28,323 nucleotides of DNA from positions 1-28,323 of IMG/VR virus record IMGVR_UViG_3300042934_000289, one strand, 5' to 3'. Below the pieces are notes generated by a model. That model was not told where the DNA came from. It ran no database searches and was given only the letters and a program-made list of their open reading frames with translations. Positions 9,865 through 11,342 of this stretch are shown piece by piece (position 1 is the first letter of the stretch; each line of letters begins with the position of its first letter). Origin of the DNA: a virus. The translations under genes and the position numbers were made by a program.

Positions 9865-10416
9865 ATGAAGGTTGTCCACCCCGCGAAGGACTGTGTGACA
9901 TGCGGCTCAGCGTTTGTTCCTGGCCGCGTGTACGCCATCTATTGCTCTCCCACGTGCAAGCTGTCCGGTCAAGTGGCCATCCGACGATCGCGCGCCTGCG
10001 CGGCGAACGGATGTCATCGGGGTTACTCCTCGCGTGGATACTGTGTGCCGCATCTCAAAGACATCGACGCCGGACGACCGCTGCACAAGAGCGTCGTTCA
10101 CCTGGCGCCCGGGACTTGGAGCAAGTGGAAGAAGAACTACCAGGGCTACATGTACCGGGTGAAGACGGAGAACACCGTCCAGACGCGTCAGCTTCAACAC
10201 CGTTGGGTTATGGAGACGCACCTCGGGCGCGAACTCCTGAAGCACGAGAACGTTCACCACATCAACGGTGATCGCGCCGACAACCGGATCGAGAACCTGG
10301 AGCTCTGGTCGGTCAGTCAGCCGAAGGGTCAGAGGGTCGCGGACAAGGTGGCCTGGGCCAAGGAGATCCTGTCGCTGTATGGCGGCATGGTCGGCGTTCC
10401 GGAAGATGACGATTGA
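9865..10416 (+). CDS. HNH homing-type endonuclease with two zinc motifs
   Basis: 183 residues; GGGGAGG lies upstream of ATG 9865. Two N-terminal zinc motifs: Cys10-x2-Cys13/Cys27-x3-Cys31, and Cys45/Cys50/Cys60/His63. The HNH core is VHHINGDRADNRIENLELWS (130-149) with His131-His132, Asn134, Asp136, Asn140 and Asn144, preceded by QLQHRWVMETHLGREL. This is the HNH_3 group, common as freestanding homing endonucleases. It stands directly before the two RNA genes, as mobile nucleases often do in phage RNA clusters. Confidence 0.85.
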   Translation: MKVVHPAKDCVTCGSAFVPGRVYAIYCSPTCKLSGQVAIRRSRACAANGCHRGYSSRGYCVPHLKDIDAGRPLHKSVVHLAPGTWSKWKKNYQGYMYRVKTENTVQTRQLQHRWVMETHLGRELLKHENVHHINGDRADNRIENLELWSVSQPKGQRVADKVAWAKEILSLYGGMVGVPEDDD

Positions 10417-10440
10417 TCTGAGGGGGTTCTCGTCTATCTC
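10413..10440 (+). promoter_or_regulatory. weak promoter candidate before the RNA genes
   Basis: TTGATC (10413-10418), 16-bp spacer, TATCTC (10435-10440), overlapping the end of the HNH gene. Transcription from it would begin shortly before the tmRNA-like RNA at 10470. Two mismatches in -35 and one in -10. Confidence 0.25.
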
Positions 10441-10469
10441 GTCGCGGTGACGACGCAAACCACACCAAC

Positions 10470-10560
10470 GGGGCTGACTTGGAAAGCCCGCTGTTCACTC
10501 TCACGCGGTTTTCACCGAAAGTGAACACGGACACAGACCGTTCGAATCGGTCCAGCTCCA
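10470..10560 (+). ncRNA. tmRNA-like tRNA domain without anticodon arm or tag frame
   Basis: A perfect 7-bp acceptor, GGGGCTG (10470-10476) with CAGCTCC (10553-10559), has the same arms as bacterial tmRNA, a G3-U70 wobble and A73 (10560), the alanine identity set. The T-arm is perfect: GACCG, TTCGAAT, CGGTC (10536-10552). Instead of D and anticodon arms there is an 11-nt D-loop-like segment containing GG (10477-10487). A long P2-like helix follows: 10488-10490 with 10528-10530, and 10492-10499 with 10520-10527, one bulged C, capped by CGGT/ACCG (10506-10517). CCA is not encoded (CGA follows). There is no room for a tag frame or pseudoknots. Alternatively it is a decayed tmRNA. Confidence 0.65.
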
Positions 10561-10658: not shown

Positions 10659-10732
10659 ATGGACGTAGCTCAATTGGCTAGAGCGCCGGTCTCCAAAACC
10701 GGAGGTTGCAGGTTCGACCCCTGCCGTCTGTG
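10659..10732 (+). tRNA. tRNA-Trp (anticodon CCA)
   Basis: 74 nt. Acceptor 10659-10665 with 10725-10731 (two G-U pairs). D-arm GCTC/GAGC with loop AATTGGCTA. Anticodon stem CCGGT/ACCGG with loop CTCCAAA, anticodon CCA at 10693-10695. Variable AGGTT. T-arm GCAGG, TTCGACC, CCTGC. Discriminator G10732; CCA is not encoded. It reads UGG codons, and the large structural genes here are Trp-containing. Confidence 0.93.
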
Positions 10733-10793
10733 CAATTCCCTTCGACACCTCCGAGGTACACCATGCGTGTGTGCTTCGCTCTGAGCACGACGA

Positions 10794-10850: not shown

Positions 10851-11342
10851 ATGCACGATCTTACAGCACTTGGATTTACGTCCACCGTCGAATCACGTCT
10901 CGCGGCCAAGCTGGTTGAGGGACCTAACGGCTGCATCGAGTGGACCGGCGCCATCCGCGGGACGTTCGGGCACGGGCACATGACCCGCGGATCTCGAGGT
11001 GCGGGCTACGAGAGCACTCACCGCGTCGCATGGATGCTAGCCAATGGCCCCATCCCCGATGGGCTGCACGTCCTACATCGCTGCGACAACCCGCCCTGCT
11101 GCAATCCGGAGCACCTGTTCCTCGGCACGCCGGCCGACAACATGCGCGACATGGACGAGAAGGGTCGCAGGCGTTCTTCACACGGCGAGACGCACCGCTC
11201 CGCAAAGCTCACTGACGACCAGGTGGCGGAGATTCGCAGGCTGGCGCCCATCGTAGGCAACGACGCCGAGCTGGGCCGCAGGTTTGGTGTATCAAAGCAG
11301 CACGCCCGTTCGTTGCGACTGATGAAGACGCGAGTCGCTTGA
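10851..11342 (+). CDS. HNH endonuclease with C-terminal HTH
   Basis: 163 residues; GGAGGAG lies 8 nt before ATG 10851. N-terminal GCIEWTGA...GHGHMTRGSRG...THRVAWMLANGPIPDG leads into the HNH core HVLHRCDNPPCCNPEHLFLG (73-92) with His73, His76, Cys78, Cys83, Cys84, Asn85 and His88. Residues 118-158 (AKLTDDQVAEIRRLA... LGRRFGVSKQHARSL) form a helix-turn-helix for site recognition. This is the typical architecture of freestanding phage homing endonucleases. It lies just downstream of tRNA-Trp. Confidence 0.88.
   Translation: MHDLTALGFTSTVESRLAAKLVEGPNGCIEWTGAIRGTFGHGHMTRGSRGAGYESTHRVAWMLANGPIPDGLHVLHRCDNPPCCNPEHLFLGTPADNMRDMDEKGRRRSSHGETHRSAKLTDDQVAEIRRLAPIVGNDAELGRRFGVSKQHARSLRLMKTRVA

Follow-up and report, generated by a model that had tools for sequence, protein, structure and literature searches.

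Between two genes for HNH endonucleases in a phage related to Arthrobacter phage Pitbull (as judged from the terminase-to-capsid region) lies a short RNA with the acceptor arms and T-arm of a tmRNA and neither an anticodon arm nor a tag reading frame. Is it a relic of a tmRNA gene, an aberrant tRNA, or a molecule that is maintained for a function of its own and, if so, for which function? The window (the whole stretch of DNA that was analysed, 28.3 kb) is an IMG/VR virus record, and the features in it that bear on the question are as follows.

9865-10416, plus strand: HNH endonuclease, upstream neighbour (PF13392).
10396-10469, plus strand: leader, 95-97% conserved in the related contigs L004, L006 and L008, holding the end of the upstream ORF (VPEDDD*).
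10470-10560, plus strand: mini-tmRNA (tRNA-like domain, or TLD, plus one P2-like hairpin, without a tag frame), supported by its fold, by relatives and by a family covariance model trained on unrelated phages only.
10470-10476, plus strand: acceptor 5' strand GGGGCTG, in which G3 is 10472 (fold; G3-U70 in 36/36 relatives).
10477-10487, plus strand: stemless D-like loop ACTTGGAAAGC (compare GGTTTCGAC in other mini-tmRNAs and in full tmRNAs).
10488-10530, plus strand: P2-like helix CCG/CGG, bulged C10491 and TGTTCACT/AGTGAACA (fold).
Within 10488-10530, plus strand: asymmetric inner loop CTCACG/AA and tip CGGT-TTTC-ACCG of the P2-like region.
10536-10552, plus strand: T-arm GACCG-TTCGAAT-CGGTC (fold; 10-sequence pairing set).
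10553-10560, plus strand: acceptor 3' strand CAGCTCC (U70 is 10557) and A73 (sequence).
10659-10733, plus strand: tRNA-Trp (CCA), called by ARAGORN, 98 nt downstream of the RNA.
10851-11342, plus strand: HNH endonuclease, downstream neighbour (PF13392).

Read from 10470 to 10560, the elements follow one another in the order GGGGCTG, ACTTGGAAAGC, CCG-C-TGTTCACT, CTCACG, CGGT, TTTC, ACCG, AA, AGTGAACA, CGG, ACACA, GACCG, TTCGAAT, CGGTC, CAGCTCC and A. The minimum free energy and centroid folds are the same (-35.4 kcal/mol, z = -2.6) and consist of a 7-bp acceptor, a P2-like helix of 3+8 bp interrupted by a single bulged C, a 4-bp inner hairpin and a 5-bp T-arm; the P2-like middle segment has a z of -3.1 relative to shuffles. 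The D-like loop contains GG, and CCA is not encoded, the next letters being CGA. In its 91 nt the RNA lacks pseudoknots, a resume codon and a tag reading frame, the hairpin loops being too short to hold a tag, and it fails as a tRNA in that both the D stem and the anticodon arm are absent. Only two candidates in the 28.3 kb, this RNA and the tRNA-Trp, satisfied a scan for a 7/7 acceptor and a 5/5 T-arm with a TTCRA loop in 66-110 nt; shuffled sequences gave 0.05 per window, and 0 in 60 when G1G2G3/U70 was also demanded. An earlier note, made from sequence alone, had described a tmRNA-like RNA with alanine identity, no anticodon arm and no tag, had listed G3-U70, A73, a D-like loop with GG, a bulged 11-bp hairpin and a perfect T-arm, and had placed it 98 nt before tRNA-Trp between two HNH genes. 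All of this held: the description by the fold and the relatives, the anatomy by sequence and fold, and the position by ARAGORN and PF13392.

Standard tools do not recognize the RNA. ARAGORN called only the tRNA-Trp in the window, with no tmRNA or tag at 10470-10560, and Rfam at E <= 5 returned no match there, neither to RF00023 nor to RF00005, so that its connection to tmRNA depends on its anatomy and on relatives. Searching named phages and plasmids with the RNA by blastn gave nothing useful, and the relatives were therefore reached through DNA patterns. A family covariance model (R1), trained on other phages only, placed its best match in the window at exactly 10470-10560, with 22.6 bits and an E of 7.5e-4 (next match, 0.87). 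Taken alone this score is weak, because tRNA-Ala genes reach about 42 bits with the same model; the positional relatives L004-L006 score 27.7-35.5 bits. The place of the window RNA in the family therefore rests on the anatomy, the absent anticodon arm and those three relatives. Near the RNA we found neither a promoter nor a terminator consensus, and the leader at 10396-10469 showed no sigma-70 promoter. The 74-nt leader is itself conserved across phages whose upstream genes differ, and they share in it the ORF end noted above and a small hairpin.

Pattern scans of IMG/VR identified the close relatives L004, L005, L006 and L008. The sequence of L006 is 91% identical to the window over the 1.36 kb directly upstream of the RNA (96% in the leader), and L005 has a terminase homologous to that of the window phage. 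The RNA itself has changed where it is paired: the T-arm stem GACCG/CGGTC of the window has the counterpart CGCGG/CCGCG in the close relatives, and both pair. For P2 the window has CCG.TGTTCACT/AGTGAACA.CGG where L006 has CCGG..TGCATGGC/GCCATGCG.CCGG. Indeed, the P2-like hairpins of L004, L005 and L006 are all unlike that of the window in sequence and all preserve pairing. The differences between window and relatives thus lie in paired regions and are compensated, which is the opposite of decay. The neighbouring tRNA gene is less constant than the mini-tmRNA, which is retained in L008, where tRNA-Trp is missing at this site, and in L006, where tRNA-Asn follows in place of tRNA-Trp.

In all, we found 36 distinct RNAs of this family. 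Most measure 75-95 nt, and they come from IMG/VR phages, from no fewer than eight named Streptomyces phages, from one 595-kb phage and from two bacterial assemblies. Looser patterns added further members with a 7/7 acceptor and a 5/5 T-arm: L007, L012 (in which the same RNA is present in four copies), L014, L016, L032, L036 (a Chloroflexota assembly in which the mini-tmRNA adjoins a phage capsid gene) and L059 (the second bacterial assembly). Blast with L012 uncovered unannotated members in Streptomyces phages BRock, Tomas, Naboo and Alone3 and in the 595-kb phage LR756511; GiJojo, LuckySocke, Riptide and pSt2308 were found after these. In seven annotated Streptomyces phages the mini-tmRNA comes after tRNA-Val. 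With a pattern of hairpin tip and T-loop only, which put no constraint on the acceptor, D-loop or P2, 31 viral contigs with RNAs of 77-79 nt were retrieved. In these, the majority class, P2 leads into an AAAG/AA inner loop and a short CCn/nGG hairpin.

Not every match was accepted. Chance pattern matches (L010, L013, L025 and L026 are examples) were removed when the acceptor or T-arm was unpaired, and L019 was rejected as an ordinary tRNA-like match with a U3-A70 acceptor. Among model matches checked in 301 Chloroflexota genomes, two were tRNA-Ala and two lay inside full tmRNAs; we therefore claim no chromosomal prevalence. Some side observations may be recorded here. An exonuclease gene of family phrog_284 lies just upstream of the mini-tmRNA in two very different phages (L012 12093-13268 and L005 6846-8012). 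GiJojo gene 44 (L121 602-844), annotated as a hypothetical protein, overlaps with the mini-tmRNA; the annotation is probably wrong. The member at L032 2607-2725 is 119 nt long with a longer P2 insert, possibly an intermediate between the mini and full forms.

Is the structure under selection? Ten sequences gave 120/120 acceptor and T-arm cells paired, with two-sided change in 5/12 pairs. An alignment of 13 sequences made without a structure model showed two-sided change in 15/23 pairs, and a 31-row set showed it in 17/23 with 96% of cells paired; none of 500 shuffles reached either value, the latter set having been aligned by the model and hence being biased towards structure. Taken together, the middle hairpins exceed their shuffled versions in stability (Fisher p about 1e-9, ignoring the kinship of partly related sequences). 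These compensatory changes show that the structure is maintained by selection. Superimposed on this variation is a fixed set of identity elements: G1-C72, G2-C71, G3-U70 and A73 are invariant in 36/36 distinct RNAs, in contrast to pairs 4-69, 5-68 and 6-67, each of which occurs as three to four pair types, with compensation. The pattern set in which the acceptor had been left free likewise gave 31/31 with a complete acceptor, G1-C72, G2-C71, G3-U70 and A73. From the invariance of G3-U70 amid varying neighbours we infer that charging probably matters, though we have no charging data.

That the relatives are homologous to tmRNA is seen with RF00023, which scores 73.4 bits on L021 (E 1e-26), 64.5 on BRock, 61 on pSt2308, 57 on GiJojo, 54 on L032, 48.7 on L016, 48.1 on L059, 40.6 on L036 and 37.6 on L005 (E 1e-15), as compared with up to about 32 bits for tRNA genes. 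The alignments run over model positions 1-374 in about 80-120 nt, the mRNA-like domain being entirely absent, and the D-loops carry the tmRNA-type motif GGTTTCGAC. The identification of the mini-tmRNAs as TLD-only tmRNAs is thus on firm ground. The earlier note had held that the RNA is not a decayed tmRNA, had proposed as checks the Rfam tmRNA model, a model built from relatives and compensatory change in P2, and had named a full-length tmRNA nearby as grounds for refutation. The claim stands: every helix, including P2 in L004, L005 and L006, is kept by compensatory change; the family model places its best match in the window exactly, with a score below those of tRNA-Ala; the Rfam model matches relatives and not the window RNA; and no full tmRNA was found elsewhere in the 28.3-kb record.

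Complete tmRNAs do accompany the mini form in other phages. Tomas and Riptide encode both, with tags DNSNVAFALAA and ANSKFAFALAA, respectively (the genome announcement for Riptide counted one tmRNA; PMC12509530), and LR756511 has a complete tmRNA (ANPEFAMAA), a 75-nt mini-tmRNA and a further form of 134-137 nt. This last, at 2250-2386 (L129 151-284), is tmRNA-like, and ARAGORN found no tag in it. A mini-tmRNA without a complete tmRNA was seen in BRock, GiJojo, LuckySocke, Alone3 and pSt2308. SmpB was absent from every mini-bearing phage record searched, and host SmpB would therefore have to serve; both mini-bearing bacterial assemblies encode a full tmRNA and SmpB themselves. The presence of a full tmRNA beside the mini form in three phages complicates a purely inhibitory role.

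A molecule of this kind has been reported once before, the "TLD only" tmRNA of mycobacteriophage DS6A (tmID 11587; PMC4131195, PMC11915505), a report that the earlier note lacked, as it did the phages with both complete and mini forms. Like the window RNA, DS6A's is phage-encoded, tagless and barely more than the tRNA-like domain, a likeness for which we have no sequence alignment to DS6A. DS6A is a single reported case, whereas the mini-tmRNAs are represented by 36 distinct sequences from unrelated phages; their P2 hairpin covaries, and most have the conserved inner loop and tip described above. Bacterial one-piece tmRNA (RF00023) shares with them the G3-U70/A73 acceptor, the stemless GGTTTCGAC-type D-loop, P2 and the T-arm; the mini-tmRNAs lack its pseudoknots, resume codon and tag frame and are about 80 nt as against 270-400. 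The tagless mitochondrial tmRNAs (RF02544) and the ~65-bp plastid forms of Mallomonadaceae have the same tag-less tRNA-like domain. These organelle forms are products of reductive evolution, the mitochondrial genes being usually permuted or two-piece, whereas the phage RNAs are contiguous and coexist with a full tmRNA of the host and sometimes of the phage. Finally, tRNA-Ala shares G3-U70, A73 and the T-arm and cross-matches the family model, but the window RNA has no D stem, anticodon arm or variable loop and was called neither by ARAGORN nor by RF00005. Thus, isolated cases were known before (DS6A and the tagless organelle tmRNAs); the novelty lies in a family that recurs, is constrained in structure and never varies in its alanine identity, and in three phages that have a complete tmRNA as well as the mini form. 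We found no description of such a family in the open literature searched, which excluded most subscription journals.

What might the RNA do? In tmRNA the G-U third acceptor pair is recognized by alanyl-tRNA synthetase (AlaRS) and the tRNA-like domain is bound by SmpB (PMC3985003; PMC8363625), and a truncated tmRNA has been crystallised on the ribosome with SmpB and EF-Tu (stated in PMC8363625). The reading that we prefer, with moderate confidence in the absence of expression, charging or SmpB data, is that of a charged competitor. The window RNA would be processed by RNase P, receive CCA from the host and be charged by AlaRS through G3-U70. Host SmpB and EF-Tu would bind the charged RNA, and full-length tmRNA would meet in it a competitor both for SmpB and for the ribosomes that broken mRNA has stalled. 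Were the mini-tmRNA to win, the nascent chain would gain one alanine and, the RNA having no resume codon, no degradation tag would be added; the net effect in infection would be less tagging by host trans-translation. Our results establish the anatomy, the homology of the relatives to tmRNA, the structural constraint, the invariant alanine identity, the absence of a tag and, in the records searched, the absence of a phage SmpB. Expression, charging, SmpB binding, entry into the ribosome and the outcome after peptidyl transfer are inferred. In favour of the charged competitor is that, according to published summaries, a DS6A-like TLD-only molecule inhibits the tmRNA of E. coli (PMC4131195; PMC11915505). 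An objection to it is that Tomas, Riptide and LR756511 encode a complete tmRNA, which an inhibitor would hit too.

The strongest rival, which remains possible, is tagless rescue: the mini-tmRNA would take over the stalled chain, which would then be released, or the ribosome recycled, with no tag added. Mitochondrial tmRNA without a tag frame has been proposed to act in this way, and the benefit would be freed ribosomes and untagged phage proteins rather than inhibition. In its favour are the invariant alanine identity, the mitochondrial and some plastid tmRNAs that lack a tag frame, of which the mitochondrial ones are thought to be helpful (PMC11915505), and the phages with both forms, which fit a division of labour. 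Against it stands the reported inhibition of E. coli tmRNA by the DS6A-like molecule (PMC4131195; PMC11915505), and the mini-tmRNA supplies no stop codon, so that a separate release step would be needed. Neither a dead end nor productive untagged rescue is decided upon by our results; a simple "off switch" is the less comfortable view given the full tmRNAs of the phages.

Less likely is a passive sponge, in which the RNA, charged or not, merely titrates SmpB (or AlaRS or EF-Tu) outside the ribosome. Its support is that inhibition by the DS6A-like molecule was reported with or without chargeability, perhaps through titration of SmpB (PMC4131195). Such charging-independent inhibition leaves the invariance of G3-U70 unexplained: G3-U70 and A73 are kept in 36/36 RNAs while their neighbours vary, which titration of SmpB alone would not require, and on this ground we favour a charged competitor at stalled ribosomes over the sponge. 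The suggestion of the earlier note that the RNA jams or titrates trans-translation accords with the DS6A-like reports, function being inferred by analogy. A bolder reading, also improbable, is that of a widespread codon-less alanine donor: the charged RNA with SmpB would enter stalled ribosomes and add one alanine per round, message-free, and chains would be spared from tagging or would acquire untemplated alanine tails, alongside the phage's complete tmRNA.

More doubtful still is a role outside rescue, be it as a donor for non-ribosomal aminoacyl transfer or as a decoy that draws off an enzyme directed against tRNA or tmRNA. Such a role would suit an RNA that has alanine identity but no anticodon, and so would the location of mini-tmRNAs in tRNA arrays, but there was no common aminoacyl-transferase neighbour among the genes tested, and the tmRNA-type D-loop GGTTTCGAC, a region of SmpB contact in tmRNA, is retained. 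A relic, whether a decayed tmRNA or the ssrA-derived attP of a temperate phage, is all but ruled out: it is suggested by Squirty, Validus and Milly, phages of cluster K in which the ssrA 3' end alone lies next to an integrase gene, and by the L007 mini-tmRNA, which ends in a mycobacterial ssrA 3' end, but compensatory change preserves all helices, the attP-only phages lack the 5' half that is complete in the window RNA, the only Arthrobacter tmRNA examined has a different 3' end, and the window ORFs searched include no integrase.

Like these three cluster K phages, PegLeg, SirSheldon and GMA2 serve as a contrast to the mini-tmRNAs; they carry 400-nt tmRNAs. In L007 (11949-12028) the 3' end of the mini-tmRNA matches mycobacterial ssrA 3' ends over 30-32 nt at 97-100% by blast, and an integrase gene is 0.4 kb away, from which it is conceivable that the attP there is a complete mini-tmRNA that survives integration. 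Mycobacterium also has TLD-like elements of ~89 nt that end in ssrA 3' sequence (L044, L045, L050, L051, L057, L066 and L076); several read GGGACTGA...CAGCTCCA with an A4-C69 mismatch, L057 has two copies 2.5 kb apart, and the copy in L076 lies about 0.7 kb after ssrA. These could be att copies of islands or degenerate tRNA-like elements.

Bacteria rescue their ribosomes mainly by trans-translation, a pathway that is also an antibiotic target. The recurrence of an RNA that has shed the tag and keeps exactly the parts that alanine charging and SmpB binding need argues that phages have repeatedly been selected to modify this pathway, and its presence in many unrelated phages suggests interference with, or bypass of, host ribosome-rescue tagging. 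The mini-tmRNAs mark a class of RNA gene overlooked by gene finders and are natural minimal tmRNAs for structural work, and what was a curiosity of DS6A becomes a family that is testable in laboratory Streptomyces phages.
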